A DNA stretch of 64,000 bases from Prorocentrum cordatum (lineage: Eukaryota > Sar > Dinophyceae > Prorocentrales > Prorocentraceae): the NCBI GenBank assembly GCA_963575745.1, contig CAUYUJ010009413.1:174001-238000 (forward strand), read 5' to 3'. The position numbers and the translations under genes are program-made. Positions 1 to 43,868 of this stretch are shown piece after piece (position 1 is the stretch's first letter; the number at the start of each line of letters is the position of its first letter). The notes under the pieces were generated by a model. The model searched no databases and was not told where the DNA came from. It saw only the letters and a list, made by a program, of their open reading frames with translations.

Positions 1-64
1 TAGTTTCTGGTCTTTTTCCCAACCATCCTGTGGTGTTGGGTCCTCGTTTTGAAGAGACGGTGCC

Positions 65-236
65 CCGCGTTCCTCTCCTCTTCTCCTCTCCTCTCCTCTC
101 CTCCTCCTCCTCCTCTCCTCCTCCCTCCTCCAATCAGCATCATCATCATCATCATCGTCATCATCATCATCATCGTCATCATCATCATCATCGTCATCAC
201 CCACCATCATCGTCATCATTATCATCATCGTCACAC
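65..236. repeat. CT-rich tract followed by (ATC)n microsatellite
   Basis: A pyrimidine tract of TCC/CTC units passes into an ATC/CAT microsatellite with scattered GTC interruptions. It sits between the hairpin end and the 90-bp array of composite copy 1. The same CT-rich then ATC order is found, inverted, in copy 2. Confidence 0.95.
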
Positions 237-240
237 CTCT

Positions 241-1765
241 CACGTTTCGTGGCCCCATAGGGAGCTCCACCGAAGGCCCCAGTGCTGCCGCCCGCATGCG
301 TCAGCCACACCCAATTCGGCACACCCCTTACACGTTTCGTGGCCCCATAGGGAGCTCCACCGAAGGCCCCAGTGCTGCCGCCCGCATGCGCCAGCCACAC
401 CCAGTTCGGCACACCCCTCACACGTTTCGTGGCCCCATAGGGAGCTCCACCAAAGGCCCCAGTGCCGCCGCCCGCATGCGTCAGCCACACCCAATTCGAC
501 ACACCCCTCACACGTTTCGTGGCCCCATAGGGAGCTCCACCGAAGGCCCCAGTGCCGCCGCCCGCATGCGTCAGCCACACCCAATTCGGCACACCCCTCA
601 CACGTTTCGTGGCCCCATAGGGAGCTCCACCGAAGGCCCCAGTGCTGCCGCCCGCATGCGTCAGCCACACCCAATTCGGCACACCCCTCACACGTTTCGT
701 GGCCCCATAGGGAGCTCCACCGAAGGCCCCAGTGCCGCCGCCCGCATGCGTCAGCCACACCCAATTCGGCACACCCCTCACACGCTTCGTGGCCCCATAG
801 GGAGCTCCACCGAAGGCCCCAGTGCTGCCGCCCGCATGCGTCAGCCACACCCAGTTCGGCACACCCCTCACACGCTTCGTGGCCCCATAGGGAGCTCCAC
901 CGAAGGCCCCAGTGCTGCCGCCCGCATGCGTCAGCCACACCCAATTCGACACACCCCTCACACGTTTCGTGGCCCCATAGGGAGCTCCACCGAAGGCCCC
1001 AGTGCCGCCGCCCGCATGCGTCAGCCACACCCAATTCGGCACACCCCTCACACGTTTCGTGGCCCCATAGGGAGCTCCACCGAAGGCACCAGTGCCGCCG
1101 CCCGCATGCGTCAGCCACACCCAGTTCGGCACACCCCTCACACGTTTCGTGGCCCCATAGGGAGCTTCACCGAAGGCCCCAGTGCAGCCGCCTGCATGCG
1201 TCAGCCACACCCAATTCGGCACACCCCTCACACGCTTCGTGGCCCCATAGGGAGCTCCACCGAAGGCCCCAGCGCTGCCACCCGCATGCGTCAGCCACAC
1301 CCAATTCGGCACACCCCTCACACGCTTTCATGGACCCATAGGGAGCTCCACCGAAGGCCGCAGTGCCGCCGCCCGCATGCGTCAGCCACATCCAATTCGG
1401 CACACCCCTCACACGCTTCGTGGCCCCAGCCCGCATGCGTCAGCCACACCCAGTTCGGCACACCCCTCACACGTTTCGTGGCCCCACAGGGAGCTCCACC
1501 GAAGGACCCAGTGCCACCGCTCGCATGCGCCCCGCACACCCATTTCGGCACCTCCACCAAACACAGCGTTTCGTGGCCCCACAGGGACCTCCACCGAAGG
1601 CCCCAGTGGTGCCGCCCGCATGCGTCACCCCCACCCCAGCACAGCATTTCGTGGCCCCACCGGGAGCCCCACCGAAGGCCCCAGTGGTGCCGCGCGCATG
1701 CGTCACCCCCACCCAGCACAGCGTTTCGTGGCCCCACAGGGAGCTCCACCGAAAGCGGCACCCGC
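241..1765 (+). repeat. 90-bp minisatellite array, copy 1
   Basis: Units start CACGTTTCGTGGCCCCATAG and repeat at exactly 90 bp from 331 through 1321 (331, 421, 511 and so on). After about 1330 the units become shorter and more diverged. Each unit holds GCATGCG and GAGCTCC. Because 90 is divisible by three, several frames on both strands stay open through the array; these frames (His/Pro/Arg-rich) are judged not to be genes. Variation is mostly single-base, which suggests recent homogenisation of the left part. Confidence 0.97.
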
Positions 1766-1810
1766 AATGCGATATTCACAACTGCACATGGCTGGGTCCT
1801 TCGCCAGGAT

Positions 1811-2584
1811 AATTTTGGGATTGTTTTGGTATGCTTTATTTTTCATCGAACATCCCCTTGTAGGGGGGCACGCCCGACATAACCCTATCTTTACTTTCCT
1901 TTCCTTTCCTGTTTTGTTCCTTCCGTTTCCTTTTCTTTCCTTTCCTCCTCCTCCTCAGGACGCGACTGCTTTGAACGACAGGGAGGACTTATTTGCAGGG
2001 CGTGCTTGAGGAGCAAGAGGAGGAGAAATAGGAGAAGAAGGAGGAGGACATAATGTCATACCCATGGTGTCGTATTCGATACTTGCCGATCTTCACCACC
2101 TCCATCACCCCTTCCGCACCTTAGTGAGCGCATTGCTCTTTAGCTGGATCACCGCATTCATTTTTACGAGCGCCACGATCTCCGTCATCGAAGTCCGCCC
2201 CGCCCAACGTCAAAATGGAGGGCTTCTGCTCTCTGACCCTTTGCCCCGAGGTTCTTCCTCAGTCCCCCGAGTTGCCTTCACACCGCAACTTCGAAGTTGT
2301 CCCTAGCCTGGAGGCCGCAGCGACGTCCCCATAGAGGGGCAGACTGAGGAGCTGGTGTCTTCGTCCAGGTAGTGCCGCTTGTCGACCTTGCTTTGTGGAG
2401 CGCTCAAGCGATCGAGCGTTCGAGCCCCTCTCCAAACACCGAACGTTTTTTTCAATCCGTGACCCCGGGACTCTAAACCATTCCTCTGGGGGCGTAGCGC
2501 GCCCCAGGTACAGCGCCGTTTTTAATACATGCTCCGCGTGCGGATCCTGTATGAAGCATGCAGGGATTTAGTATTCAAATTATC
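1811..2584. other. Spacer between inverted composite copies, with a small hairpin
   Basis: No gene recognised. It contains a TTTCC pyrimidine tract (about 1890-1960), a purine tract (2010-2050), an unrecognised 80-codon open frame at 2064-2306, and a hairpin at 2486-2507 (stem CTGGGG/CCCCAG) inside a block of about 35 bp that recurs near 6268-6300. Confidence 0.6.
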
Positions 2585-4528
2585 CCGGCGAAGGACCCAA
2601 CCATGTGCAGTTGTGAATATCGCATTGCGGGTGCCGCTTTCGGTGGAGGTCCCTGTGGGGCCACGAAACGCTGTGCTGGGTGGGGGTGACGCATGCGGGC
2701 GGCACCACTGGGGCCTTCGGTGGAGGTCCCTGTGGGGCCACGAAACGCTGTACTGGGCGGGGGTGACGCATGCGGGCGGCACCACTGGGGCCGTCGGTGG
2801 AGCTCCCTGTGGGGCCACGAAACGCTGTGCTGGGTGGGGGTGGCGCATGCGGGCGGCACCACTGGGGCCTTCGGTGGAGCTCCCTGTGGGGCCACGAAAT
2901 GCTGTGCTGGGGTGGGGGTGACGCATGCGGGCGGCACCACTGGGGCCTTCGGTGGAGGTCCCTGTGGGGCCACGAAACGCTGTGTTTGGTGGAGGTGCCG
3001 AAATGGGTGTGCGGGACGCATGCGAGCGGTGGCACTGGGGCCTTCGGTGGAGCTCCCTATGGGGCCACGAAACGTGTGAGGGGTGTGCCGAAATGGGTGT
3101 GGCTGACGCATGCGGGCTGGGGCCACGAAACGTGTGAGGGGTGTGCCGAATTGGATGTGGCTGACGCATGCGGGCGGCGGCACTGCGGCCTTCGGTGGAG
3201 CTCCCTATGGGGCCACGAAAGCGTGTGAGGGGTGTGCCGAATTGGGTGTGGCTGACGCATGCGGGCGGCAGCACTGGGGCCTTCGGTGGAGCTCCCTATG
3301 GGGCCACGAAACGTGTGAGGGGTGTGCCGAATTGGGTGTGGCTGACGCATGCGGGCGGCGGCACTGGGGCCTTCGGTGGAGCTCCCTATGGGGCCACGAA
3401 ACGTGTGAGGGGTGTGCCGAACTGGGTGTGGCTGACGCATGCGGGCGGCGGCACTGGGCCTTCGGTGGAGCTCCCTATGGGGCCACGAAACGTGTGAGGG
3501 GTGTGCCGAATTGGGTGTGGCTGACGCATGCGGGCGGCGGCACTGGGGCCTTCGGTGGAGCTCCCTATGGGGCCACGCGTGTGAGGGTGTGCCGAATTGG
3601 GTGTGGCTGACGCATGCGGGCGGCGGCACTGGGGCCTTGGTGGGGCTCCCTATGGGGCCACGAAACGTGTGAGGGGTGTGCCGAACTGGCTGTGGCTGAC
3701 GCATGCGGGCGGCAGCACTGGAGCCTTCGGTGAAGCTCCCTATGGGGCCACGAAACGTGTGAGGGGTGTGCCGAATTGGGTGTGGCTGACGCATGCACGG
3801 CGGCACTGGGGCCTTCGGTGGAGCTGCCTATGGGGCCACGAAGCGTGTGAAGGGTGTGCAGAATTGGGTGTGGCTGACGCATGCGGGCGGCGGCACTGGG
3901 GCCTCCGGTGGAGCTCCCCATGGGGCCACGAAACGTGTGAGGGGTTTGTCGAATTGGGTGTGGCTGACGCATGCGGGCGGCGGCACTGGGGCCTTCGGTG
4001 GAGTTCCCTATGGGGCCACGAAACGTGTGAGGGGTGTGCCGAATTAGGTGTGGCTGACGCATGCGGGCGGCGGCACTGGGGCCTTTGGTGGAGCTCCCTA
4101 TGGGGCCACGAAACGTGTGAGGGGTGTGCCGAACTGGGTGTGGCTGACGCATGCGGGCGGCAGCACTGGGGCCTTCGGTGGAGCTCCCTGTGGGGCCACG
4201 AGACGTGTGAAGGGCATGCCGAATTGGGTGTGGCTGACGCATGCGGGCGGCAGCACTGGGGCCTTCGGTGGAGCTCCCTATGGGGTCACGAAACGTGTGA
4301 GAGGTGTGACGATGATGGTGATGATGACGATGATGGTGGGTGATGACGATGACGATGATGATGATCATGATGACGATGATGATGATGACGATGATGATGA
4401 TGATGCTGATGGGAGGAGGGAGGAGGGGGAAGAGGAGGCGAGGAGAGGAGGAGAGGAGAGGGGGAGAGGAACGCGGGGCACCGTCTCTTCAAAACGAGGA
4501 CCCAACACCACAGGATGGTTGGGAAAAA
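2585..4528 (-). mobile_element. Composite minisatellite element, copy 2 (inverted)
   Basis: Reverse-complement arrangement of copy 1. It opens with GGCGAAGGACCCAACCATG, passes through the 90-bp array, then GAT repeats and a purine tract, and ends with the inverted hairpin end (ACACCACAGGATGGTTGGG). With copy 1 it forms a large inverted pair separated by about 0.77 kb. Confidence 0.7.
2640..4412 (-). repeat. 90-bp minisatellite array plus (GAT)n, copy 2
   Basis: The same 90-bp unit as the first array, on the opposite strand, with degenerate units near 2640-3050, regular units to about 4308, then a GAT microsatellite to 4412. A few units carry internal deletions (for example near 3470 and 3580). 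Open frames here are repeat artefacts. Confidence 0.95.
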
Positions 4529-4599
4529 ACGATGAGTTCATGCGTAAACTTATTCATACATTGCCTATACGACCACCCCTCGGGTGATAAGGAGGTTCG

Positions 4600-4815
4600 G
4601 GGGGGGGGAGGAAGCAGCGTCTCACTCGATCGGTCTCACTATCCATCTCACGATCGGTCTCGCTCGATCGATCTCACTCGATCGGTCTCACAATCGATCT
4701 CACTCGATATATCTCATTCGCTCGGTCTCACAATTGATCTGATTATCGATCTCACAATCGATCTCACATTCGGTCCCACTATCGATCTCACTACCGATAT
4801 CACATTCGATCTAAT
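4600..4815. repeat. Degenerate short repeat of GATCTCACTC type
   Basis: About 215 bp of irregular 10-22-bp units built from CGATCTCAC and TCGGTCTCAC. It lies between composite copy 2 and the long ATC tract. Confidence 0.85.
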
Positions 4816-4817
4816 AT

Positions 4818-4823
4818 TCAACG

Positions 4824-4859
<36 letters not shown>

Positions 4860-5893
4860 CCAACACCATCATTCAGGTACGGTCGATCACCAACACCATC
4901 ATTTTCATCGTCATCGGGACACTGTCGTCATCATCATCGTCGTCATCATCATCCACGCCATCATCATCAGGCCATCATCATCATCCCCATCATCATCTCA
5001 TCATAGTCATCATCATCATCATCGGCACACAGCCTTCGTCATCATCACCATCATCATCATCATCATCATCGGGACACCATCATGGTCACCATCAGTGTCA
5101 TCGTCAACCTCATCAACAACATCGGGACACCATCATCATCATCATCATTTAATCATCATCATCATCATAATCAACAGCATCATTCACATCATCGGGACAC
5201 CATCATCATCAGCAGCATCATCGTCACCAACCTCATCATCAATATCATCATCGGTACACCATCACCATCACCATCATCATCACCACCGTCATAATCATCA
5301 TCATCGGGACACCATAATCATCATCAGTCAGCAGCATCATCATTACCAACATCATCATCAACAACAATGGGCAGAAACATCAACATCATCGTCATCCCAT
5401 CATCATCAACAACATCATCAACATCACCAGCGGGACACAGCCATCGTCATCATCACCATCAGCATCATCATCATCATCGGGACACCATCATGGTCACCAT
5501 CGTTGTCATCGTCCACATCATCAACAAGATCGAGACACCATCATCATCATCAGCTCATTGTCATCATCATCAGCATCATCAACATCATCGGGACACCATC
5601 ATCATCAGCAGCATCATCATCACCAACATCATCATCAATATCATCATCGGTACACCATCACCATCACCATCATCATCACCACCGACATAATCATCATCAT
5701 CTGGATACCATAATCATCATCAGCAGCATCAGCATTACCAACATCATCATCAACAACAACGGGCAGAACATCAACATCATCGTCATCTCATCATCATCAT
5801 CATCAGCATCATCATCATCATCACCAGGACACCATCATCGTCATCATCATCACCATCAACACAACCATCATGATCATCATCAACATCATCATT
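4818..5893. repeat. Long ATC-type tract with higher-order structure
   Basis: About 1.08 kb of ATC/CAT microsatellite with punctuating words such as GGGACACCATCATC and AACATCATC. A block beginning near 5188 recurs near 5578, about 390 bp later, with very similar interruptions, so the tract grew by block duplication as well as by slippage. Histidine- and isoleucine-rich frames across it are not credible genes. Confidence 0.93.
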
Positions 5894-6082
5894 ATCGGGA
5901 CACCGACGGGGCACCGACGGGACACCGGCGGGACACCGCGGGCCCCCGGCCGCCCGGAAGGGAGTCATTTGGTCTGGCCGCGCCTCAGCCACACGGGACA
6001 CCAGCGGACACCGGCCGGACACCGCAGGCCCCCGGCCGCCCGGAAGGGAGACATTTGGTCTGGCCGCGCCTCAGCCACAGGA
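5894..6082. repeat. GGACACCG repeats and an 88-bp tandem duplication
   Basis: Short GGGACACCG-type units lead into two copies of a block of about 88 bp (GGCCCCCGGCCGCCCGGAAG then CATTTGGTCTGGCCGCGCC), at about 5940-5995 and 6028-6080. Confidence 0.85.
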
Positions 6083-6277
6083 GACTTTCTCTCGCCCGCC
6101 CACGCAGCTTCGCCTCGCCCGCACGGCACGCACGAACACGAAACCGAAATCGATTTTCCGGTAGGGGGGCTCTCCGTTCCACTTCGATCTCACCCCCCAA
6201 CCTCCGACTCACGTATTAAACATCCTATCTATTGTTTAAAATCCCATGGATTAAAAGCTGCCCTGTAAATCATTCCT

Positions 6278-6299
6278 CTGGGGGCGTAGCGCGCCCCAG
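6278..6299. repeat. Small hairpin, second copy
   Basis: CTGGGG/CCCCAG stem with an inner GCG/CGC pairing. It is the same block as at 2486-2507, preceded in both places by CATTCCT or a close variant. Unknown role; could be the end of a dispersed element. Confidence 0.6.
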
Positions 6300-6394
6300 G
6301 CACGCCTTCCACCGCCCCAGAGCCCGAGCCCCCTCGCCGGCGGAAGCCGGGGGACACATCCAAGGGCCTCGGACAACTGTGGCTTCGGACTCCC

Positions 6395-6755
6395 CCCCCC
6401 TCCCCTCCTCCTCCTCCTCCTCCTCCTCCTCCTCCTCCTCCTCCTCCTCCTCCTCCTCCTCCTCCTCCTCTCCGTCCTCCTCCTCCCCTCCCTCGCCCTC
6501 CTCCTCCTCCTCCTCCTCTCCTCCTCCTCCTCCTCCTCCTCCCTCCTCCTCTTCGGTCTTCGTCCCCTCTTCCTCCTCCTCCTTCCTCCTCCTCCTCCTC
6601 CTCCTCCTCCTCCTCCTCTCAGTCCTCCTCTTCCTCCTCCTCCTCGTACTCCTCTTCTCCTCGTCTCCTCCTCCTCCTTCTCCTCCTCCTCCTCCTCTCC
6701 CTCCTCCTCATCCTCCTCCTCCTCCTCGTCCTCCACCATCTCCCCCCCCCACGCA
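6395..6755. repeat. (CCT)n pyrimidine microsatellite
   Basis: About 360 bp of CTC/CCT repeats. Serine-, proline- or leucine-rich open frames here are artefacts of the repeat. Followed by further C- and T-rich sequence up to the composite element at 6822. Confidence 0.95.
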
Positions 6756-6821
6756 CCAGTGTTTTGTCCACGCCTCCCCTTTCCCCCCCCCCCCCCGCGC
6801 TCGTTCCGAAGCGTTTTTTTT

Positions 6822-8775
6822 CCCAACCATCCTGTGGTGTTGGGTCCTCGTTTTGAAGAGACGGTCCCCGCGTCCTCCTCTCCTCTCTTCTCCTCTCCTC
6901 CTCCTCCCCCTCCTCCTCCCTCCTCCCCCTCTTCCCTGCGTTTCATTACAGCGTTTCGTAGCCCCATAGGGAGCTCCGCCGAAGGCCCCAGTGCTGCCGC
7001 CCGCATGCGTCACGCACGCCCAATTCGGCACACCCCTCACACGTTTCGTGGCCCTAATAGGGAGCTCCACCGAAGGCCCCAGCGCTGCCGCCCGCATGCG
7101 TCACGCACACCCGATTCAGCACACCCCTCACACGTTTCGTGGCCCCATAGGGAGCTCCGCCGAAGGCCCCAACGCTGCCGCCCGCATGCGTCACGCACAC
7201 CCAATTCGGCACACCCCTCACACGTTTCGTGGCCCCATAGGGAGTTCCACCGAAGGCCCCAGCGCTGCCGCCCGCATGCGTCACGCACACCCAATTCGGC
7301 ACACCCCTCACACGTTTCGTGGCCCCATAGGGAGCTCCACCGGGCCCCAGGGTGGCTCACAGCCTCCAAGGCCCCAGTGCTGCCGCCCGCATGCGTCGGC
7401 ACACCCCTCACACGTTTCGTGGCTCCATAGGGAGCTCCACCGAAGGCCCCAGTGCTGCCGCCCGCATGCGTCACGCACACCCAATTCGGCACACCCCTCA
7501 CACGTTTCGTGGCCCCATAGGGAGCTCCGCCGAAGGCCCCAGCGCTGCCGCCCGCATGCGTCACGCACACCCAATTCGGCACACCCCTCACACGTTTCGT
7601 GGCCCCATAGGGGGCTCCGCCGAAGGCCCCAGTGCTGCCGCCCGCATGCGTCACGCACACCCAATTCGGCACACCCCTCACACGTTTCGTGGCCCCATAG
7701 GGAGCTCCGCCGAAGGCCCCAGTGCTGCCGCCCGCATGCGTTTCACGCACCCATAGGGAGCTTGCGTCCCGATTCGGCACACCCCTCACACGTTTCGTGG
7801 CCCCATAGGGAGCCCCACCGAAGGCCCCAGTGCTGCCGCCCGCATGCGTCCCGCACACCCAATTCGGCACACCCCTCACACGTTTCGTGGCCCCATAGGG
7901 AGCTCCACCGAAGGCCCCAGTGCTGCCGCCCGCATGCGTCACGCACACCCAATTCGGCACACCCCTCACACGTTTCGTGGCCCCATAGGGAGCTCCACCG
8001 AAGGCCCCAGCGCTGCCGCCCGCATGCGTCACGCACACCCCATTCGGCACACGCCTCACTCGTTTCGTGGCCCCATAGGGAGCTCCACCGAAGGCCCCAG
8101 TGCTGCCGCCCGCATGCGTCAATCACACCCAACAAATTCGGCACACCCCTCACACGCTTCGTGGCCCCATAGGGAGCTCCACCGAAGGCCCCAGCGGCCG
8201 CACTCATATGCGTCCCCGCCACCCATCCCGGCACGCCCCTCGCAACAACAAGTTTCGTGGCCCCATAGGGAGCTGCACCGAAGGCCCCAGTGGCACCGCC
8301 CGAATGCGTCACCACCCGCACCCAAGTCGGCACACCTCTCACACGTTTGGTGGCCCCATAGGGAGCTGCACCGAAGGCCCCAGTGGCGCCGCTCACATGC
8401 GTCCCCGCCACACATCCCAGTACACCCCTCACGCGCTTCGTGGCTCCATAGGGAGCTCCACCGAAGGCCCCAGTAGCGGCGCTTACATGCGTCTCGGCCA
8501 CCCATCCCGGCACTCCTCCCGCAGCATCATGTTTCGGGGACCCATAGGGCTCCACTGGAGGCCCCAGTGGCAGCCCTCACATGCGTTTCCGCCACCCATG
8601 TCGGCACGCCCCGCGCGTGTTTCATGTCCCCATTGGGAGCTTTACCGAATGCCCCGGTGGCACCCATCTCGGCACACCCCTCACACGTTCCGTGGTCCTG
8701 TGGGGAGTTCCACTGAAGATGAAACCCGCAGCTGCGGTACTGACAACTGCATATGGTTGGGTTCTTCGCCAGGCT
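6822..8775 (+). mobile_element. Composite minisatellite element, copy 3
   Basis: Same left end as copy 1 (CCCAACCATCCTGTGGTG and following bases), then a CT-rich tract, a 90-bp array, and the right end GGTTGGGTTCTTCGCCAGG. It lacks the ATC microsatellite seen in copies 1 and 2, so the interior varies between copies. Its right-hand units (8160-8740) are much more diverged than the left-hand ones. Confidence 0.7.
6955..8740 (+). repeat. 90-bp minisatellite array, copy 3
   Basis: Homologous to the arrays at 241 and 2640, with TCACGCACACC replacing TCAGCCACACC in most units. Insertions interrupt it near 7340 and 7745. Units beyond 8160 differ strongly (CGTCCCCGCCACCCATCCCGG type), so two subfamilies are joined in one array. 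Confidence 0.95.
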
Positions 8776-8820
8776 AATTTTGTGCAGCCCCCGCCTGAAA
8801 AATCAACGTCGGGGAGTTCG

Positions 8821-13039: not shown

Positions 13040-13150
13040 TATCCCCAGAAAATATGGGAAGATATGGGACAAACCCTGAACATATTGGAAAATATGGGGA
13101 ATCCTGTTATTTGTATCTATTTATTTGTGTGTCGCAGGGCCCCTTCAATA
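13040..13150. mobile_element. Dispersed element family J, copy 1
   Basis: CCAGAAAATATGGGAAGATA on the left, TATTTATTTGTGTGTC then GCAGGGCCCCTTCA on the right. Other copies lie at 26930-27065, 39300-39562, 44255-44425 and 54078-54217. Non-coding. Confidence 0.7.
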
Positions 13151-15019: not shown

Positions 15020-15169
15020 AAAAAAACACACGCAGACACACACACAATCAAGATCTCCAGGACAGTATTGAAAATATGGGAATTGGAGGGCAATACGAGA
15101 ATCCCAAACACATAAAAATGAGCCTGGCGAAGGGCCTAACCAATTGCAGCTGTGAGTATCGCAGTCGTG

Positions 15170-16420
15170 GATATCGTGTTCGGTGGAGCTCCTGGTGGGG
15201 CCACGAAACATGAGATGGGGTGTGCCAAAGTGGGAGGGCGGCGGCACACGGGCGCTGCCACTGGGGCCTTCGGTGGAGCTCCCTCTGGGGCCACGAATCG
15301 TTCGAGGGGTACGTCAGAATGTGGCGGCACCGCCACGCGGACCCTGCCGCTGCGGCCTTCGGTGGTGCCGCCTCAGGCCACGAAACGTGCGAGGGGTGCG
15401 CCCAAATGTGGCATAGAACCGCATGCGGGCGCTGCCACTGGGGCTTCAGGTGGAGCACCCGACGGGGCCACGACACGTGCGAGGGGTGCGCCAGAATGTG
15501 GGATGGAACCGCATGCGGGCGCTGCCACTGGAGCCTCAAGTGGAGCACCCTACTTGGCCACGAAACGTTCGAGGGGTGCGCCAGAATGTGGGATGGAACC
15601 GCATGCGGGCGCTGCCTCTGGGGCCTCAGGTGGAGCACCCGACGGGGCAACGAAACGTGTGCGGGGTTCGCCGGATTGGAGGGTGCAACCGCATGCGGGC
15701 GCTGCCATCGGAGCCTACGGGTGCCGGAAATGAAAGGTGAAACCGCATGCGGGCGCTGCCACTGGAGCCTCAAGTGGAGCTCCCTGTAGGGCCACGAAAC
15801 GTTTGAGCGGCGCTCCGACAGTGGAAGGTGAAACCGCATGCGGGCGCTGCCGCTGGAGCCTTCGGTGGAGCTCCCACGGGCCCACGACGCGTGTGAGGGT
15901 TGACCGAAATGAGGGTGGAACCGCACGCGGGCGCTGCCACTGGGGCCTTCGGTGGAGCTCCCTGTGGAACCACGAAGCGTGTGAGAGCTTCGCCGAACTG
16001 TTGGGATGTAACCGCATGCGGGCGCTGCCACTGGGCCCTCAGGTGGAGCTTCCCTACGGGGCCACGAAGCGTGTGAGGATTGACCGACATAATGGTTGAA
16101 ACCGCATGCGGGCGCTGCCACTGGGGCCTTCGGTGTAGCTCCCTATGGGACCACGAAACGATTGTCGCCGAAATGGAGGGACGATCCATCTGTGGGCGCT
16201 GCCACTGTGGCCGTCGGTGGAGCTCGCAAGGGGCCCACGGAACCTGTAAGGTGTGCACTGACAGGGGTGAAACCGCATGCGGGCGTTGCCACTCGGGCCT
16301 TCGGTGGAGCTTCCCATTAGGCCACGAAACGAACGATGGGGTCGCCGAAATGGTCGGTGGAACCGCATGCGGGCGCTGCCACTGGGGCCTTCGGTGGATC
16401 CCTCTATGAAGCCAGGAAGA
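15170..16420 (-). repeat. Diverged minisatellite of the 90-bp family
   Basis: Units retain GCCTTCGGTGGAGCTCCC, GGCCACGAAACG and CGCATGCGGGCGCTGCCACT. The spacing is 75-95 bp and many substitutions are present. Open frames are repeat artefacts. Confidence 0.93.
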
Positions 16421-16445
16421 TTGTGTGGTTGCACCGGAATAGGTG

Positions 16446-16494
16446 GCGACGATGATGACGATGATGATGGTGATGGTGATGGTGATGGTGATGG

Positions 16495-16538
<44 letters not shown>

Positions 16539-16596
16539 CTGATGATGATGATGATGATGATGGTGATGGTGATGATGATGATGATGACCATGATGC

Positions 16597-16634
<38 letters not shown>

Positions 16635-16715
16635 GTGATGGTGATGGTGATGATGATGCTGATGATGATGATGATGATGATGTTGATGGTGGCGGTGATG
16701 CTGTTGATGCTGTTG
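16446..16715. repeat. (GAT)n microsatellite in composite copy 4
   Basis: 270 bp of GAT/GGT repeats occupying the same place as the ATC tract of copy 1. Confidence 0.97.
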
Positions 16716-16809
16716 GTGATCAAGGAGGAGGGAGGGAGTGGGAGGATCAGGAGAGGAACGCGGGGCGCTGTCTCCCCAAGACGAGGACCCAACGCCCCAG
16801 GATGGTTGG

Positions 16810-17271
16810 AACATAGAGGGAATCTGATGACTCGTGATTTATATTTGTGTGTCCCTGGACCCTTCCCTCTCCGAGGCTGGGGCTCTGGGGGTTGCTGAGC
16901 TTCGAACCGACTTGAGTCACAGACACCCTCGGGTCCTGACAAAAATAACGGCGAGGGATGTGTTTTGCTATTTTCTGCCTCTGGAGGCCCTCGCTTGGTC
17001 CCGGGGAATGGGTCGGGGCCTCTGGGGGTCGACGCAACGCAAGAATCAGGACGTGGTTACGGCACCTTGCAGATTCTTTTCCGGGATTTTGCCATGGGGT
17101 AACGTCTACGCTTGCGGGGTTGTTCCGAAGTCGTCCGTGTCGCTCATCAAAGGTTCATCAACCTGCTCGTTGGATCGAGGCTGACTAGGCCTCGGCTCGG
17201 GCCCCAGTGCAGGGCCTGGTGCACGCTCCATCGAAAGCCTGGGTGAGTATCGAGGAATAAATTGTTCTGAC
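16810..17271. other. Unassigned, with a family J fragment
   Basis: 16835-16875 (ATTTATATTTGTGTGTCCCT, GGACCCTTC) resembles the right half of family J. The remainder is unassigned. Confidence 0.5.
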
Positions 17272-17500
17272 GACGAAGGGCCCAACCATTTCCAGACATG
17301 CTCGCGTCGCGCAAAGATCCCTGCGGGAGGGTCTTGTCCGTGTTGGTTATCTGGAGGCCTCGCTGGGCCTGGGGATCGAAAGCCAGCCCCGGGGAAAGGG
17401 TCGGGATCTCCAGGGAACCCCCACTTATCAAAATCAAGGCATCGCATGTTTCGGCTTGGCCCGAGGAAGGACCCAACAAGATGCAGCCGTGTGTACCGGC
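17272..17500 (-). repeat. Two solo right ends of the composite element
   Basis: 17272-17300 (GACGAAGGGCCCAACCATTT) and 17458-17500 (GGAAGGACCCAACAAGATGC, then a minisatellite-like GAGCTCCC) both match the inverted right end of the composite element. No matching left end or array follows, so they are decayed or solo ends. Confidence 0.55.
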
Positions 17501-20035: not shown

Positions 20036-20039
20036 TATT

Positions 20040-20265: not shown

Positions 20266-20335
<70 letters not shown>

Positions 20336-21001: not shown

Positions 21002-21267
21002 TGTGCCTTGACAGTGCCCCCAGACTTTGTGCTCGTGATGGATTCGCAGGTCACTGCTGCCTTCGCAGACATAGGGTGCTGCTTGGGCGCGTACTATGGC
21101 GATAGCAACGCGACCACGCACCGACGAACCCGACTGTGCCTTGACAGTGCCCCCAGACTTTGTGCTCGTGATGGATTCGCAGGTCACTGCTGCCTTCGCA
21201 GACATAGGGTGCTGCTTGGGCGCGTACTATGGCGATAGCAACGCGACCACGCACCGACGAACCCGAC
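21002..21267. repeat. 133-bp tandem duplication
   Basis: Two virtually identical units starting TGTGCCTTGACAGTGCCCCC at 21002 and 21135. The unit length is not a multiple of three, so a coding frame would change between copies, which argues against a gene. Near identity points to recent duplication. Confidence 0.95.
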
Positions 21268-22515: not shown

Positions 22516-22574
22516 TCATGGGGGTGATGACTAGGAGGTGATGACCAGGGGGGTGTGATGACTAGGGGGGTGGG

Positions 22575-22735
22575 TATCATGGCGTGGGCCATGCTATTGC
22601 CCCAGATTTCATGGCGCTTTTTCTTATTTCACAACTTTCCTGGCCCCCCCTTGCGCCTCGCACATGCCGCCGGCCATGCTTTGCGCCCCCCCCTCTTGGA
22701 AGCCCCCCTCTTGGCCGCCCCCGAAATACGTTGGA
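22575..22735. mobile_element. Family H element, copy 2
   Basis: CAGATTTCATGGCGCTTTTT and CCCCCTCTTGGAAGCCCCCC match the copies at 11768, 45780 and 47030. Confidence 0.75.
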
Positions 22736-22847
22736 GGCTTGGCTGTTGGATCCACGCGGGCTTCCTGCGGCCGTGCGGGGCGACTCGGGCACCCCCAGAG
22801 CGCCCTCGTCGAGGCGCTGCGGCAGGAGGGCATCCAGAGCTTCTGTG

Positions 22848-23055
22848 AAGCCCGACGAGAACAGACGACAATTTCCGGAATTGGGAGAAAAACACAACAA
22901 AAACAACACACACACACACACACCCACACACAAGAAAAAACAAACACACACACACACACATTGTGGAAAAACACACACAATAAAAAATCAACAATTACAC
23001 AGTCTGTGTGTTTTTCCCGACGAGAGCCGACGACAATTTCCAGAATTGGGAGGGG
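22848..23055. repeat. CA-rich microsatellite flanked by ~37-bp direct repeats
   Basis: CGACGAGAACAGACGACAAT with TTCCGGAATTGGGAG (22848-22884) recurs as CGACGAGAGCCGACGACAAT with TTCCAGAATTGGGAG (about 23018-23055). Between them lie about 130 bp of (CA)n with A-rich interruptions. Confidence 0.85.
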
Positions 23056-23077
23056 AGAGGCGCCACTTAAAGGAGCG

Positions 23078-23288
23078 TCCTGGAGGCCTCGCGCGGCGCG
23101 CAGCAGATGTATTTTTTAGTCCGCACGTCCGCCCCGTCAGGTATGGGACGACGTCTGCGCGGCGCTGGCCAGACGCAATTCCGACGTAAGTCCGCCATGA
23201 ATCTGACGCAATGTGTGAACCCTGCGCGCAGGCGACGTGGATCCGGCACACATTTGGTCTCGAGTTGCCGCGCGAGGCCTCCAGAGGA
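23078..23288. mobile_element. TIR element family I, copy 1
   Basis: Left end TCCTGGAGGCCTCGCGCGGC; right end GCCGCGCGAGGCCTCCAGAG is its imperfect inverse. The interior has GTCCGCACGTCCGCCCCGTC and GGGACGAC, shared with 31445-31783. Non-coding. Confidence 0.8.
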
Positions 23289-23400
23289 TCTTCCCCACGA
23301 GAGCCAGAGGGACACCAGGACAGGGGAGGGCAGGGCAGGACTTGCGTCCATATCCACTGCATCTCGGAATTTTAGGCTCCCTTCCCCAGCAGCCCGAGTC

Positions 23401-23460
23401 GCACTGGATGTGCATAGATATCTGCCCCCCAGAGGGTAGATTTTTATCCACATCCAGTGC
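23401..23460. repeat. Compact foldback with 27-bp arms
   Basis: GCACTGGATGTGCATAGATA and the next seven bases (23401-23427) pair with 23434-23460, with four mismatches and a 6-base loop. Design and core (GTGGATGTGGATA) are similar to 8821-8890. Confidence 0.8.
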
Positions 23461-23926
23461 GCGTTGGCCTTGTGGCGCCCCGTCTGCGGGAGTCAAAGAC
23501 ACACTGACTGTGGTTCATGAATGTTGCGCGCAGGGAGGAGGTAAGCAACACAACACAGAGAGACATGAGGAGCACATGGGAAGTGGAAAGGAAGACGAAC
23601 ATCCAGGAAATCTGGAAGAGTGATGGCATCGAGGGACCTGTGTCCACTGAGCCGTGGCTCCGGGGGCCCCTTCCAGGGGGGGATGCGGGAGACTCTGCGG
23701 CAGCGCTGGGCGACCATCGCGGCGGCGGCGGGCCTAGGGCACCGCGGCCGCAGCCGGTGGGGCGAGAGCTGGAAGCCCCCCCCCTCGCCACAGGAGGAGC
23801 TGCGGGCCACCTCGCCGCCAGGGGCCGATCGGGGCGCACGAGAGGGGGAGATACAGTCAACACGGGAAGGGGAGACGTGTGTGTGTGTGCCTCGCAGCCT
23901 GCCCAAGAGAAAAGTCAACACTGCGG
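23461..23926. other. Unassigned sequence
   Basis: Moderately long frames on both strands, none with recognisable domains. No repeat recognised. Confidence 0.4.
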
Positions 23927-24101
23927 TGGGGGCTCATGCTATGAAGCACCCTGCTTACCTCCAGGGTGCCCTGTGTTTCTTGGGTTTCGATGGTTTTGCA
24001 ATGGAAGGCGTGACGTTCCCACGCCGAAAATCGATGGAGGTCCTGGGGTCTCAGCGTTGGGTTTCTTGTTGAGGGTTTCTTGTGGTCGGGCCCCCCCACT
24101 G
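23927..24101 (+). mobile_element. Family G element, copy 2
   Basis: GGTGGGGGCTCATGC on the left; CGGGCCCCCCCACTG then TA on the right. Interior shared with the 22376 copy (CCCTGCTTACCTCCAGGGTG, TTTCGATGGTTTTGC). Confidence 0.75.
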
Positions 24102-24749
24102 TAAGCATAGTCGACTTCCGAAACATCCTTACCTCCTCGGTCCATTCGTAACGCCTTTCGATGGCCAGCCCCGCTCGAACAGCCTCGGCATGGGCGTCCA
24201 AGGCCCTTGCACACTTATCGCGCATCCCTACTATCAGCTTTGATTGCATTTGACGCGAGCCCCCGGAGTGTGTAGCGGGAGAGACTCCCCTCTCCCTGCC
24301 CCCCCGTGCTCTCTCGGGGGATGGGGGGCAGTTTTCCCGGCGGCGACCGATGCGTGACTGTTCCACCCTCGGTACCATGAGCCCCAGCAGGCGTTTCAGG
24401 TTGTGCTGCCTGCTATGGTTCGCGTGATGTTGATACACGCCGCTCGGGCGACCTCGGGCCGCTCAAACATGCATGAATCTAGTAAGATTAGCCCTGCAAG
24501 TTTTCTATCTCTTGGGTTCGCACTACGGTTTATGATGAGACATGCTGTACGACCCGCGCGATCAGGATGCATGCGCAAGCTTCAACGCACCCCCACCCCC
24601 GATCCAATGTTGGTGGGCATGGCTAGCGGGGGCAGGATTTCGGCCGGTCGACTAGTTGCGTTGCAGCTGCCAGTCTTCGATTTGGGGTGCGGGGAGTGTT
24701 CATAAACATCAACATGCAAGGTGCAAGGTGTGGTCCATCATCCCTATGT
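24102..24749. other. Unassigned sequence
   Basis: No gene recognised. Slightly lower GC than its neighbours around 24460-24560. Confidence 0.4.
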
Positions 24750-24941
24750 CGGGCCGGGCGAAAGGGGGGGATTGGGAAAGGGGGGGTTACGAAATTTGCT
24801 GCATGCAGCTGGTTTCGGCCTCACCGAGGGGCCCATTCCTCGATACATAGCCGCCTCCGGCGTCAGGAGGCGCCGGGAGAGCCAGCTACGTGAGCTGATT
24901 CTCAAACCCCCCCTTTGCTATCCCCCCCTTTTCGCCCGACC
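24750..24941. mobile_element. TIR element family D
   Basis: Ends of the form GTCGGGC..GAAAGGGGGGGATTG and its complement (CCCCCCCTTTTCGCCCGAC), with internal palindromes GCTGCATGCAGC and CCGCCTCCGGCG..GGAGGCG. A truncated copy lies at 18044. Non-coding, about 190 bp. Confidence 0.8.
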
Positions 24942-25117
24942 CGACTATGGCAGGTTCGCATCGTTTCGACGCGGCGACGACCCCAGCGCGGGTGTTCGAG
25001 ACTGAGCGCCGCCTGTGGCCCAGAGACGGCCCATGTATAACGATCTGGCGATCGTGAGACCGCCGATCGCTCAAGGTCGAGCGGTCCGCGCGGTGCCGGG
25101 AACCGACGGCACTACTT

Positions 25118-25241
25118 GGCATCGCTCGGACGTGTGCAGTTTTTCTCGGCGAGGGCGATCGAGGAGCATCCTGGATCATTTGGCGAAAAAGCCACGCACG
25201 ATACCGAAAAAAACACAGGGAATGGACGTCCGAGCGATGCC
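25118..25241. mobile_element. TIR element family C, copy 1
   Basis: Perfect 16-bp ends GGCATCGCTCGGACGT. The interior has CGATCGAGGAGCATCC and GAAAAAGCCACGCACGA. Homologous to 27666-27790 and 40102-40226. Non-coding, 124 bp. Confidence 0.88.
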
Positions 25242-25269
25242 AGGTCTATCGTCACGACACGAACTGGAA

Positions 25270-25380
25270 GCAGGTAGAGGGCGTTCTGGAACGCCTTCAG
25301 AGCGTTCCCGAACGCTCTGAGAAGGCTTCGGCGCCCGAGACGTGTTCCGGAGCCTCCAGATCTCAGAGATTCCCGATTCT
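25270..25380. repeat. Dispersed repeat, copy 2 of 2
   Basis: Matches 14215-14325 (CTTCAGAGCGTTCCCGAACG, CGGCGCCCGAGACG). Confidence 0.7.
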
Positions 25381-25702
25381 ACAGGCCTACGCCACATCCG
25401 CCGACACCTTGTATTCCTTGTTCGCTCAGGTATCGCTTCCTTCTTTATCTCCCTTCCCCAGGGGCTCTTGGGGGTCCTTGGTGCCTCTGTGGGGGATGAG
25501 GCGGAGGAGGGGGAAGATAAATAGTTGGAGGAAGGTGAGGATGAGGAAACGGCGTCAAGCGGACTCCAGCCGATTTATCTTCACCCGATGTTCTCCTCGT
25601 CATGTCTTCGCCTTACCAATCTGTTGTCAACGCCTTCCTGCTTCATGTTTCTATACACTTCTTCCGACCGCTGGGCGGGACAGCCAGGGTCGGACTAACA
25701 GA
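25381..25702. other. Unassigned sequence
   Basis: No gene or repeat recognised. Confidence 0.4.
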
Positions 25703-26048
25703 CCCCCAGTAGACCATCCCCTTCTGTGACGTCCCCCTCGCCTCGCCCCAAGACGTATGTCATGCGGCCTGAGAGGAGCGTGAAAGGCGAGGGTTACCTC
25801 ACGGAAGGGAATGGTTTGCTAGGGGTCGGTTAGGCCGTGCCCGAAGGGTTTCTGGCAGTTTCTCCCAGGACTTCTCTCGCCTCGGGATGCTTTCCAGCAA
25901 ATGCTCCTCGCTGGGGGCGTTCCTGGGATGCCGGAATCGCCCCAAACGGCCGCCAGAGGCCCGAACAATGACCCGAACCCCAGAATCTTCCGTAGCGGGG
26001 GGCAGTTTGAAAGGCGAGGGTGACGTCACGGAAGGGGATGGTCCGCTA
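25703..26048. mobile_element. TIR element family K with an internal end copy
   Basis: Left end CCATCCCCTTCTGTGACGTC is inverted at 26007-26045 (GACGTCACGGAAGGGGATGG). A third, direct copy of the right-end word lies at 25777-25817, so either two elements are nested or an end was duplicated. Non-coding. Confidence 0.7.
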
Positions 26049-26239
26049 TTGTTGTGGAGGACGATCAATGGAGAGGAAGCATGTTGCCAAGTCATTCCAG
26101 ATGTTTAGAACATGTGATAAAATTGTTCTATACATATAATGCACATGAAACATCTCAACATCTTAAACACATGTTTGATTCGATGACAGGACTGTTAGGG
26201 TGTCCATTGTCGTGGCATCCACAACGCTATTGATTCGGG
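26049..26239. other. Short AT-rich stretch
   Basis: 26100-26180 is markedly AT-rich, with ACATGTGATAAAATTGTTC and AACACATGTTTG words. Nothing recognised. Confidence 0.4.
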
Positions 26240-26405
26240 AGTGGACAGACCTCTTACCCTGACGCGTCGATTAAGGAATTGGCCGTTTTCGGCTCGCGAG
26301 AGGGCGTCGCGGCCGTCATTTTTGCGGGTCCAGGTCCGTCGGTTTCGGTCCCAGGCTGTTTTCACTAAGACGAGATCTACTAAAGGGAGGTTTGTCCATC
26401 GCCGA
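26240..26405. mobile_element. Family M element, copy 2
   Basis: Nearly identical to 9825-9990 over CGAGAGGGCGTCGCGGCCGT and TTTGCGGGTCCAGGTCCGTC. Confidence 0.75.
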
Positions 26406-26599
26406 CTATTGGTCGGTTCGATACAGGGGCCCTCTTGGGCCATCTCGGGGGCTTCTTGCGGCCCTGTTGGCCCAGCTTGAGGCGCCTCTGGGGCCCCCGG
26501 GGCCAGGCGCCAGATGTCCGCAGGCCTGGCAGTTGCCCGCCCGCGCGCGCGAACAGATCCCTCGGGACAGGATCGGGGGTCCCGCGCCGCGAAAAGATC

Positions 26600-26770
26600 C
26601 TTGGTCGCGCCAGAGAGAAGTACCGAAACTCCATGATTCTCACGTGTTGGGCCCTGGGAGACCCGCGTTCGACACTCTGTCGACACTCGTTCGGCACTCT
26701 TTCGACACTTTTCCGGGCGCTCGAACATATTTGTGGGATGTGGTCCTTAAGTAAGATGGGAGCAACATGA
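26600..26770. mobile_element. Family F element, copy 2
   Basis: AGAGAGAAGTACCGAAACTC and TGTGGGATGTGGTCCTTAAG match 14440-14582. TCGACACTC-type words repeat within it. Confidence 0.6.
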
Positions 26771-26929
26771 TGCTATTGGTCGGTTAGGCCGCGCCCGATA
26801 CGGGGGCTCTGTGGTCTTCTCGTCCCGCCGATCGGGGCGGGGGTGCTGCCGCCTGGCCCCGTGCCTCGGTGCGGGTCGCTTCCAGGCCCGCGCAGGAAGG
26901 CGCCGGAAAGTCCGGAGGCACAATTTTTC

Positions 26930-27065
26930 GCCGACTCCCAGGAAAACATATGGGAAAAAAATGGGAAGTGGGGGGGAAGACAAAAACCCAGAAGATATAG
27001 GGAAGTGTGGGGAATCCTGCTATTTGTGCGTATTTATTTGTGTGTCCCAGGGCCCCTTCAGAAAG
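26930..27065. mobile_element. Family J element, copy 2
   Basis: GACTCCCAGGAAAACATATG on the left; GCGTATTTATTTGTGTGTCC and CAGGGCCCCTTCA on the right. Confidence 0.75.
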
Positions 27066-27118
27066 GCCAGAGGCACCAGCCAGCGCATTCGCCCACCTTC
27101 CCATTGTCGGGGGCCCCT

Positions 27119-27315
27119 AAACGGTGTGGTAACCACACCGTGTGGCGAGTCGGTGAGGATTCGGGGTCACCGCACGGTCTTGGGACTCGGGTCGTTCTCC
27201 GAGGACGTCTCGGGCAACAGGGGCCTCCGGGGTCCCAAGACCGTGCGTTGACGGACTGCGCGGTGAGGTCTCTTGGGGTTCGAGGTCACCGCACGGTCTG
27301 TCACCACACCGTTTC
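27119..27315. mobile_element. TIR/foldback element family L
   Basis: Ends AAACGGTGTGGT/ACCACACCGTTT (12 bp, perfect), with a second hairpin GGTGTGGTAACCACACC at the left end. GTCACCGCACGGTCTTGGGA and GGTCCCAAGACCGTGCG form an inner inverted pair. Non-coding. Confidence 0.8.
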
Positions 27316-27665
27316 GGGACTCCAAACATTGCCATCCCCCCCATTCGTCCGACCCGATTTGCGCAAGCCTCGGCACAGCTGAGCGACGTTGGCCAGAGAT
27401 TCTCCTATGTTCAGCCTCGTGCACCTTCGGGGTCAGGGAGGGTTCGTACACCCTTCCCCCCCCCTTCCTCATCCTCCCCCGCTTTTTCCTGGCATCCGCT
27501 TGTCCCGCAGGGGCAGCACGTCTGGGGTGGACGAACAGCGGCTTGGGAACAAGCGCAAAGGCGCGCCCACTGGGGCTGTAGCGGGGCGTGTCCTGGGGTG
27601 CGAACGGTCTGAGACGGTGGAGAGCAGCAGGGACGGAGAAAACGTGTGTGCGCGACCTATGGCTT
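27316..27665. other. Unassigned sequence
   Basis: No gene or repeat recognised. Confidence 0.4.
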
Positions 27666-27790
27666 GGCATCGCTCGGACGTGTGCATTTTTTCCCGGCGA
27701 GAACCATCGAGGACAACCCTGGACCATCGAGCAACAAAAAACACGCACGAAACCAAAAAATGTACGGGGAATGGACGTCCGAGCGACGGC
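27666..27790. mobile_element. TIR element family C, copy 2
   Basis: Left end GGCATCGCTCGGACGT; right end as in copy 1 with one mismatch (CGAGCGACGGC). Same interior. Confidence 0.85.
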
Positions 27791-28769
27791 AAGATGGGGC
27801 CGTCATCTGGGGTTCTGTGTGGGTGCGCAGGGCCTGCGAGGGGTGGGCGAGGAGGGAAGCTGGAGCCACACGCAGTGGCGCCGTGGGGGGGCCGTCGCTG
27901 GGGCTCGCTGGCGGGGGTGTGAGGCGGCCGAGGACAGCGGGCCCGAGTGGATGTGGTGGCGCACGCGGCCGTTCCCGCTGCGGCCGGGGCTGGGGTTCCC
28001 CATCGGGCGCGACGCGCGCGACGGGGTGTGCCACATCGCACGCGCGAAGACTCGGGACTCGGCACGGTGCCCAACATCAGTCCCTGCTCATGTTGAGCAG
28101 GTCTCGCTGTTCGCGCCGCCGCGGGGCGTCTGTCTGTTCTTGGGACAGAAGGCCTCCTGCCCAGCGTCGGCCGCGGTCGGTCTGGGACCATCTTTGCGGC
28201 TGGGCATCGTACCCTGTTGGTCCGTACCCACTTCGGGCGTTCAGAAGCACATGCCTTCGGCATAGATGGGGCTGGCCACTGCGCGCGAAGCATGTGGAGG
28301 GTGGGCCAAACCAGATGGGACGTGGGCCCCGCGTGCTTGCGGGCGCGACCGTTCGGACCTCTGCGGTGCCGTGGCAGGCCTACCCCATTTAGTGGGGTGC
28401 GAAGCACTTGAAGGGCGGGCCGTATGGGTTGAAGGGCAAAGCCTACCTGCTTCTAGAAGACCAATCTCTGGGGCATGTGCCACAACATAGTTGTCATGTT
28501 CTGGCTACCAGCGTCTTCAGACACACAACTGGTTGTCGTTACGTATATCGGCGCACTCTGCGGCCGTTGCGTTCGGCGCAGTACGAGGTCGGAGAAAGGT
28601 TGGACCCGTCTACGGTATGTTCCTGTTCTAACGTAGGTCCCACATGTTATTCCAACGCATCGGACCCACTGACAGCTGTAAGTGTCCCCCCACTGAGGCC
28701 GAAGTTCGGTTCTAGAGAATGGGGGAGGACGAAAACAAGGGATCGGAGCAGCAGCAGGGAGGTATGGGA
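27791..28769. other. Unassigned, with a worn family E copy
   Basis: 28066-28250 matches family E internally and at its right end (GTCCGTACCCACTTCGGGCG); the left end is eroded. The remainder has no supported gene. Confidence 0.5.
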
Positions 28770-28825
28770 GTGGGAGGAGGAGGAGGTGGAGGAGGAGGAG
28801 GAGGAGGAGGAGGAGGAAGAGGAGC
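28770..28825. repeat. (GAG)n microsatellite
   Basis: About 55 bp of GAG repeats. Nothing else recognised up to 29172. Confidence 0.93.
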
Positions 28826-29172
28826 CAAAAAAGGCGGGTCGACTGGCGTTGCGGAGAGAAATGACGATCAAGCTTCAGTGTGGCGGGAGGGAATTCATCG
28901 CCTAATGGGCGACGTAGGCCGTGGGCTAAGCGACAAAAGCCTGGTCGAGAATTCCGGTGAGCGCCTTCGGCGCATCTGCCGCAGCCGCTGCTGTCCATCC
29001 GGATGTGTCCATCCAGCGTCGCTAGTCGTCTGTCTGATGTGCTTGCGGCGGGGCACGTCGCAAATGACCCGTAGTGCCTCCAGCTTCAAGCGCACGCCTG
29101 GCGGGCGCGCAAGGTGCCATCACTCGGAGACCTTCGCTGCACCCATCGCGCTGCATTTCCATGATTCTTTTT

Positions 29173-30260
29173 CCCAACCCTCCTTGGTTGGGTATTCGTT
29201 TTGAATATGGCACTGCGGTCTCCAGTCCTCCTCCTCCTCCTCCTCCTCCTCCTCCTCCTCCTCCCCCTCCTCCTCCCGCCTCCCGCCTCCCGCTTCCGTC
29301 TTGTCTCCTCTTGCCTTGCGCATACCTCGTGTGTGTGTGTGTGTGTGCATCCAGGCTGCGGTACCTCTTGTGTGTGCATCTTGCCAAGGGGCTGCGATCT
29401 GCGACGCTGTCGCCACTTTCGAGGGCTGCTGGTGGGTCCTGCGGAGTGAGGCACCGCGGGGTCCTGAGCGAGACCTCGCCGTCCCTGGGGGGGCTGCGAT
29501 CTGCGACGCTGTCGCCACTTTCGAAGGCTGCTGGTGGGTCCTGCGGAGTGAGGCACCGCGGGGTCCTGAGCGAGACCTCGCCGTCCCTGGGGGGGCTGCG
29601 ATCTGCGACGCTGTCGCCACTTTCGAGGGCTGCTGGTGGGTCCTGCGGAGTGAGGCACCGCGGAGACCTGAGCGAGACCTCGCCGTCCCTGGGGGGGGGG
29701 GCTGCGATCTGCGACGCTGTCGCCACTTTAGAGGGCTGCTGGTGGGTTCCAGCGGAGTGAGGCACCGCGGGGACCTGAGCGAGACCTCGCCGTCCCTGGG
29801 GGGGCTGCGATCTGCGACGCTGTCGCCACTTTAGAGGGCTGCTGGTGGGTCCAGCGGAGCGAGGCACTGCGGAGACCTGAGCGAGACCTCGCCGTCCCTG
29901 GGTGGCTCTGGAGAGCTGCTGCGGGATTCGTTAGGCGCAACGGGCGCATGGCACAGCCAACGGGGATGAGTTGTGAAACAGACCATCTGCCGGCGATGGC
30001 CATAACGTTGCGCTTACACGTATCCCGCGGGGGCTCTCAAGAGCTGCTGTGGGAGACGTTGGGCGCAACGGGCGCATGGTGCAGCCAACGGGGATGCTTT
30101 GTGTTATTACGTAGCCCTTATATCTTGATCGGGGGTCTGCGAGCCTTCCGATTTACTGGTCGCAAAATCACATGCGTCTATGTTACGTCATCGCCCCCGT
30201 TGTAGTAACCTTGATATACTTATGCCCCGCATTGCGAACGGGTTGGGTACGTCGCCAGGG
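29173..30260 (+). mobile_element. Composite minisatellite element, copy 5, with a different payload
   Basis: The left end CCCAACCCTCCTTGGTTGGG forms a clean 7-bp hairpin and is followed by TATTCGTTTTGAA, matching copies 1 and 3. It is followed by a CTC microsatellite, as in copies 1 and 3. The right end GGTTGGGTACGTCGCCAGGG then TAATTT matches copy 3. The interior, however, is a 102-bp repeat with no clear similarity to the 90-bp unit. This shows that the ends and the payload are separable. Confidence 0.7.
29391..29905 (+). repeat. 102-bp minisatellite, five units
   Basis: Units begin GCTGCGATCTGCGACGCTGT at 29391, 29493, 29595, 29701 and 29804. Length differences come from a G run. The unit is a multiple of three, so frames stay open on both strands; not judged a gene. 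A further 65-bp block (GGCGCAACGGGCGCATGG) is repeated at about 29911 and 30040. Confidence 0.95.
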
Positions 30261-43865: not shown

Positions 43866-43868
43866 TCC

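Follow-up and report, generated by a model that had tools for sequence, protein, structure and literature searches.

What spreads a minisatellite together with one and the same pair of short end sequences? The question is raised by a stretch of 64,000 nucleotides (nt) from the dinoflagellate Prorocentrum cordatum (GenBank assembly GCA_963575745.1, contig CAUYUJ010009413.1, positions 174,001 to 238,000 of the forward strand), here called the window, which holds five units of this kind, E1 to E5. It is near certain that these elements are genuinely mobile. By their anatomy, they probably form one high-copy family of non-autonomous rolling-circle elements similar to the Helentron-associated interspersed elements (HINEs). 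An earlier note, written from the letters of the window, had taken them for a non-autonomous mobile unit with a satellite array as cargo, and the paired ends, unrelated flanks and uninterrupted insertion sites described below support this.

Five elements with common ends

The five loci named in the earlier note are all present at the places and in the orientations it gave. Two profiles, one for the left and one for the right ends of these loci, were scanned over the window; their strong matches are exactly E1 to E5 (left E 9e-23 to 5e-13; right E 3e-16 to 3e-11). E1 (13..1816, + strand) starts with a run of T at 13-17, followed by the left end at 18-80; its 90-nt array occupies 232-1753, the TAATTT of its right end extends to 1815, and TCC and ATC microsatellites lie within it. 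A palindrome of the form CCCAACC-loop-GTTGGG in the left end (18..45, + strand) comprises a 5' subterminal inverted repeat (subTIR) and a complementary inverted repeat, while the right end (1784..1815, + strand) consists of CCCAACCAT inverted, with one mismatch, and then TCCTTCGCCAGGATAATTT. E2 (2577..4529, - strand) is an inverted near copy of E1: 1728 of 1793 aligned nt are identical (96.4%) in opposite orientations, and E2 is longer by 154 nt near the right end, corresponding to about two 77-nt units. E3 (6814..8781, + strand) shows T-run, left end, TCC microsatellite, 90-nt array (6950-8719) and right end. The array of E4 (15116..16811, - strand) is the most diverged of the 90-nt class within the window, and E5 (29168..30266, + strand) combines ends of the same kind with an unrelated array of five 102-nt units (29388-29902).

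The orientation of the 90-nt repeat relative to the ends is identical in E1 to E4, and all 70 significant matches of the 90-nt unit in the window fall within elements. Beyond the ends, the flank columns of the five copies agree at chance level (about 0.22-0.28 on the right). E4 sits in a dispersed AT-rich repeat, termed repeat X, that is uninterrupted elsewhere. Around E4 and at window positions 13048-13147, 26928-27060, 39330-39562, 44260-44440 and 54085-54240, this repeat X was found, and it is the insertion site of several elements.

The right-end word of the earlier note is indeed conserved, being exact in E1 and E3 with one mismatch in E2 and two each in E4 and E5, but conservation reaches beyond that word, to CGCCAGG-N-TAATTT. 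This longer right end is present in all five window copies with at most one mismatch to TTCGCCAGGNTAATTT. At up to three mismatches, TTCGCCAGGNTAATTT has five matches in the window against a mean of 1.1 in shuffled sequence, and five were reached in 1 of 100 shuffles. The word TCGTTTTGAA is exact in four of the five copies and changed in E4. The claim that CCCAACCAT occurs inverted at both ends is exact for E2 and E3; in E5 the match is 8 nt long (CCCAACCC), in E1 it is broken by a mismatch, and in E4 it amounts to 5 nt.

A high-copy family in the genome

The assembly searched comprises 4.13 Gb in 21,875 contigs, and the G+C content of the window is 60.1%; an excerpt of the published genome description gives 59.7% G+C and 4.15 Gb for P. 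cordatum (PMC10666404). With the ends of the family written as T-CCCAACCATCC...TTCGCCAGGNTAATTT (left...right), the right end at no more than one mismatch has 21,175 matches in this genome (10,497 + 10,678), against 43 for a control with the reversed pattern. A sample of 70 loci was taken, each chosen by an exact right end only. They derive from the first 72 exact matches in contig order, which is not a random draw; two were skipped, one lying near the start of its contig and the other close to a further match. Since the loci were selected in this manner, the invariance of TTCGCCAGGNTAATTT up to TAATTT among them follows from the choice itself.

The earlier note had proposed a genome search for paired ends, and in the sample it bore this pairing out: a left end in the same orientation lies upstream in 31 of the 40 loci that have 4.5 kb of upstream sequence. 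Window and loci together yield 55 complete elements with a length of 537-3015 nt (median 1464). The 90-nt repeat family is found in 54 of these and is never inverted, the exception being E5 with its 102-nt repeat; by profile count, there are 3 to 32 units per element. Complete elements contain 706 of the 1,084 unit matches. The remaining 378 form 42 arrays, of which 35 adjoin an element end and 7 are cut by a locus edge, so that no free-standing array occurs in the window and the 70 loci. Two short conserved ends delimit a repeated unit. Inside it, a tandem array that varies in length comes after a microsatellite, and the type of array between related ends may differ, as it does in E5. The ends of different elements show an identity of 98% in the closest pair and 71% in the median pair.

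A second right end was found within 9 of the 70 loci. The right end abuts a following left end in loci L040, L074 and L075, and the element of L012 starts immediately after another right end, giving head-to-tail abutting copies in 4 of 71 sources. Outside this genome, three scans of viral contigs gave 0 matches, no plasmid matched with E1 as query, and nothing in Rfam reached the gathering threshold. Seven matches of a 19-nt word in prokaryote contigs were set aside: about 4 are estimated from size, and none of the seven continues into TAATTT.

Termini and target sites

Terminus statistics are based on 53 elements, two of the 55 pairs having been left out for want of a clear end anchor. The base before CCCAACC is T in 96% of the elements, the second base outward in 89%, and the third to fifth in 73-83%; farther out the composition is near random. 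The length of this left T-run varies from 0 to 8. On the right, the base after TAATTT is T in 51%, and farther out T is somewhat in excess in an otherwise near-random sequence.

The search for target duplications suggested in the earlier note was negative: among 50 elements (3 of the 53 were left out for short flanks), duplications of 3-10 nt show no excess over shuffled flank pairs. An apparent 5-nt duplication at E4 was discarded, as its best offset is met by one of the five true flank pairs, just as in most mismatched pairings.

The sequence outside the ends is unrelated between copies, and uninterrupted relatives of the insertion sites exist. The joined flank pairs of the 53 elements were compared with the window and the 70 loci, and for 18 of them a spanning match was obtained. 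Four of these reflect neighbouring copies of the element (L012, L040, L052, L075), five are less clear (L016, L055, L062, L076, E4), and nine are clearly readable uninterrupted relatives (L039, L041, L047, L059, L064, L013, the minus copy of L015, L026, and E2, the target of which has its uninterrupted relative in L034). According to alignments read by eye, insertion took place into a T-rich tract in 8 of the 9 readable sites, and 7 of the 9 filled sites exceed one or more of their relatives by 2 nt. Such an excess would follow from terminal T's of variable number, as described for Helentrons.

Structure of the ends

The right end contains an inverted copy of the 9 nt that open the left end; it is exact in 34 of 53 elements, and in 44 it has no more than one mismatch. 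Against shuffles, this subTIR has a p of about 0.001 in E2, 0.002 in E3 and 0.008 in E5. The hairpin of the left end has a z below -1.5 in 41 of 53 elements; of the five window copies, only E4 departs from this. A CAAC...GTTG palindrome, located about 21-37 nt from the right end, overlaps the right subTIR, and 96% of its cells are paired if T-G is counted, compared with 64% for the best slid version. A direct motif is also common to both ends, of 10 nt in E2 (GTTGGGTCCT), 9 nt in E5 (GGTTGGGTA) and 4-8 nt in the others. E5 carries matching changes at both ends (CCCAACCC; GGGTA), where the other four window copies read GGGTC at the left end and, at the right end, GGGTC, GGGTT or GGCCC. Among the 53 elements, both ends are canonical in 34, whereas 8 vary on the left only, 6 on the right only and 5 at both ends.

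Classical Helitron1 elements begin with a 5' TC and end with a hairpin followed by CTRR. These features are absent here, as the left end is a T-run followed by CCC, the right end reads NTAATTT (N is C in 49% and A in 45%), and the sites are T-rich. Helitron1 inserts between A and T, according to an excerpt of the relevant literature (PMC10741241).

Likeness to known systems

The following comparisons draw on excerpts of the cited papers. A closely similar layout is that of Cg_HINE in the Pacific oyster and Pearl in bivalves (PMC7492417), with a left module of subTIR, complementary inverted repeat and microsatellite, a central array in constant orientation, and a right module with a subTIR. A T-rich target, the absence of a duplication and unrelated arrays between related ends are likewise in common (PMC7492417). 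Differences concern the host, which here is a dinoflagellate, the number of units (3 to 32 here, up to six in Pearl), and the 3' side, where the palindrome of the present family is weak and overlaps the subTIR and the end lies only about 19 nt past the subTIR. DINE-1/INE-1 of Drosophila and the HINEs of mites also share subTIRs, boundary strings of T in variable number, insertion at TT or T-rich sites, a microsatellite and central repeats (PMC4067079). Unlike those, the present family has no demonstrated Helentron partner and no 3' stem-loop of normal stability, and its subTIR core measures 9 nt, as compared to 11 identical bp in the published family rule. Microsatellites or tandem repeats in the middle of HINEs are frequent, not obligatory.

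Dinoflagellate introners, including those of P. cordatum, resemble the family in being non-autonomous with inverted repeats near the ends (PMC10666404, PMC7789003). They have inverted repeats of 8-20 nt and direct repeats of 3-5 nt at the intron edges (PMC10666404, PMC7789003); in contrast, no direct repeat of 3-5 nt was detected in the flanks of the present elements, and their interior is a satellite array.

A candidate driver in the same genome

The Helitron_like_N domain (PF14214) of Helitron Rep proteins has at least 151 matches in the genome (150 of 1,615 candidates were scored; best E 6e-56); 14 control genomes gave none. One Rep family, located on contig C18150 at 65300-67600 (L078) and on 10 further contigs, comprises 11 copies, which agree over 2301 nt with an identity rounding to 100%. 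Such identity suggests that this family has been active very recently, and since the copies match over the full 2301 nt, its 5' end must lie farther out. A Stc1-like zinc domain (PF12898, E 1e-6) precedes the Rep in this family.

Upstream sequence was sampled for two Rep families: 2.3 kb ending at the Rep in the family with the 11 copies, which has an open frame of 1099 amino acids (aa), and 1.4 kb, covering 1.1-2.5 kb before the Rep, in a family with one of 1797 aa. The earlier note had suggested looking for an autonomous relative bounded by these ends. Rep domains of Helitrons are present, but neither sample contains the left end, the element termini not being reached in these stretches, and no such autonomous element came to light.

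This last result weighs against an assignment to the HINE-like elements, and so do several others. The Rep-upstream samples yield only a weak match (E 0.04) to the inner part of the left end. The subTIRs of E1 and of E4, taken singly, are not significant against shuffles. A stable 3' hairpin is absent, the last 40 nt having a z below -1.5 in only 1 of 53 elements; the CAAC...GTTG palindrome is weak as well (z below -1.5 in 4 of 53), its inner two pairs are nearly always G-T, and one cell is changed on both sides. About 19 nt separate the 3' subTIR from the end, as against 38-60 nt in an excerpt on mite HINEs (PMC4067079). Co-evolution of the two ends, for which E5 is an example, was rejected as a general rule, since of the five elements that vary at both ends only E5 matches itself. 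Finally, the 2-nt excess of filled sites is not seen in L041 and L026. With a weak 3' palindrome and no partner found to be linked to these ends, the family resembles HINEs in its working and is probably, though not certainly, one of them.

Alternative explanations

Another class of single-strand transposons with an HUH enzyme, such as Replitrons or an IS200/IS605-like system, might be the driver instead, which we consider unlikely. Excerpts describe Replitrons as 0.9-4 kb long with short direct terminal repeats (PMC10741241), and the size range of the present elements, the direct motif common to both ends, the short repeats near the ends and a stable hairpin at the left and not at the right end would agree with an HUH-type mechanism. 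However, Replitrons leave duplications of 2-8 bp (PMC10741241), none of which was seen at 3 nt or more; a duplication of two T's would be indistinguishable from the terminal T's, and the elements encode no protein that could be compared. The HINE layout of subTIR, inverted repeat, microsatellite, array and subTIR is the closer fit.

A retroposon read in reverse, similar to SVA, appears quite improbable. Here the T-run would be an A-tail, the hairpin a 3' tail recognized by the enzyme of a long interspersed nuclear element (LINE), and the array a variable number of tandem repeats. The reversed element does end in GGTTGGG-A(n) with a run of 0 to 8, and a LINE-type open reading frame with a reverse transcriptase is located in the window at 32125-38157. 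Copies driven by LINEs are often truncated at the 5' end, whereas 31 of 40 copies reach the opposite end here. Furthermore, target duplications of 3-10 nt do not exceed shuffles in the 50 elements, inverted and direct motifs are common to both ends, and the match of the left-end profile in the LINE is at chance level (E 4.4).

Still less probable are a recombinase element of the Crypton type and a cut-and-paste DNA transposon in which terminal inverted repeats are not obvious. Sharp ends, no evident coding capacity and no detected duplication would be compatible with either. The termini themselves are not inverted repeats, and the fixed duplication that cut-and-paste elements normally leave was not detected. 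A single segmental duplication, or a satellite scattered by recombination without transposition, has next to no probability and is rejected for the sampled copies: E1, E2 and E3 do lie within 9 kb and 9 of 70 loci hold a second right end, but the first 100 right ends listed are spread over dozens of contigs, the flanks are unrelated and the insertion sites have uninterrupted relatives.

Proposed mechanism

Returning to the HINE-like assignment, the mover is probably a Helentron-type Rep/helicase, to judge from the anatomy of the elements, their behaviour at target sites and the Rep domains that the genome contains. The Rep/helicase of an autonomous Helitron or Helentron in the same genome may recognize the CCCAACC/GGTTGGG motifs at both ends, nick at the terminal T's, peel off or copy one strand, and insert it between T's elsewhere. 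Array length would be altered by slippage or unequal exchange. Abutting copies could arise from read-through or from re-insertion at the T's of the 3' end.

A gene-like fragment in one branch

Six of the 70 loci (L009, L015, L041, L042, L061, L065) contain a non-repeat fragment, matched over 129-185 nt, at a constant position about 93-277 nt from the right end. In L015 its antisense strand is open over 73 codons, and this frame is what points to a gene origin; no Pfam match was found for the fragment. A genome search with it returned 2,042 candidates, and among the best 150, which were scored, all have 93-100% identity and 147 are stop-free. An open frame of 1851 aa that holds the fragment proved to be another element beside a run of N; two further long frames measure 1116 and 1913 aa. 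The fragment looks like one that was captured once and then amplified, and in the proposed mechanism acquisition would likewise precede amplification. Through this family, repeats have reached many places in the genome, and one of its branches has also distributed a gene-like fragment.

The excerpts consulted record elements of the HINE/DINE-1 type that contain tandem repeats from insects, mites, molluscs and sea urchin (PMC4067079, PMC7492417), and helitrons as such are noted in Symbiodinium genomes in a further excerpt (PMC9087856). Among the papers listed by searches on Helitron or Helentron in combination with dinoflagellate, minisatellite or introner, no title or abstract opening describes such an element in a dinoflagellate. 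With its 21,175 right ends, the present family would add dinoflagellates, whose genomes are large and rich in repeats, to the groups in which satellites are dispersed by this route, and its gene-like fragment offers a way to test for rolling-circle shuffling of coding sequence there. As a bolder proposal, which we regard as conceivable though doubtful, the elements would be a distinct dinoflagellate rolling-circle lineage with its stable hairpin at the 5' and not the 3' end, and the main vehicle that made and spread the 90-nt minisatellite, its array being confined to the element, able to expand and contract there, and exchangeable for another array between the same ends. The gene-like fragment would then have been carried to some two thousand sites, perhaps, and have supplied them with raw sequence for new exons or regulatory DNA.

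Decayed ends and other features of the window

Beyond E1 to E5, the end profiles pick up three decayed single ends in the window. One is a left end at 43867..43896 (+ strand, left profile E 1e-5), with no detectable right end. The other two are right ends on the - strand, at 17259..17295 (right profile E 6e-4) and 17460..17499 (right profile E 2e-3), the latter adjoining a very weak match of the 90-nt unit (E 0.4).

The LINE-type open reading frame mentioned above (32125-38157, + strand) is 2010 aa long and contains the domains of a reverse transcriptase and an RNase H; its endonuclease match is slightly below the cut-off. Its protein neighbours are five matches, one of which is a Symbiodinium protein, and no phage record matched with this region as query. 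Two arrays of one roughly 125-nt repeat are located at 57934-59350 and 62003-62381, 2.7 kb apart. At 21002-21267 there is a tandem pair of 133 nt, the two copies of which are 100% identical.

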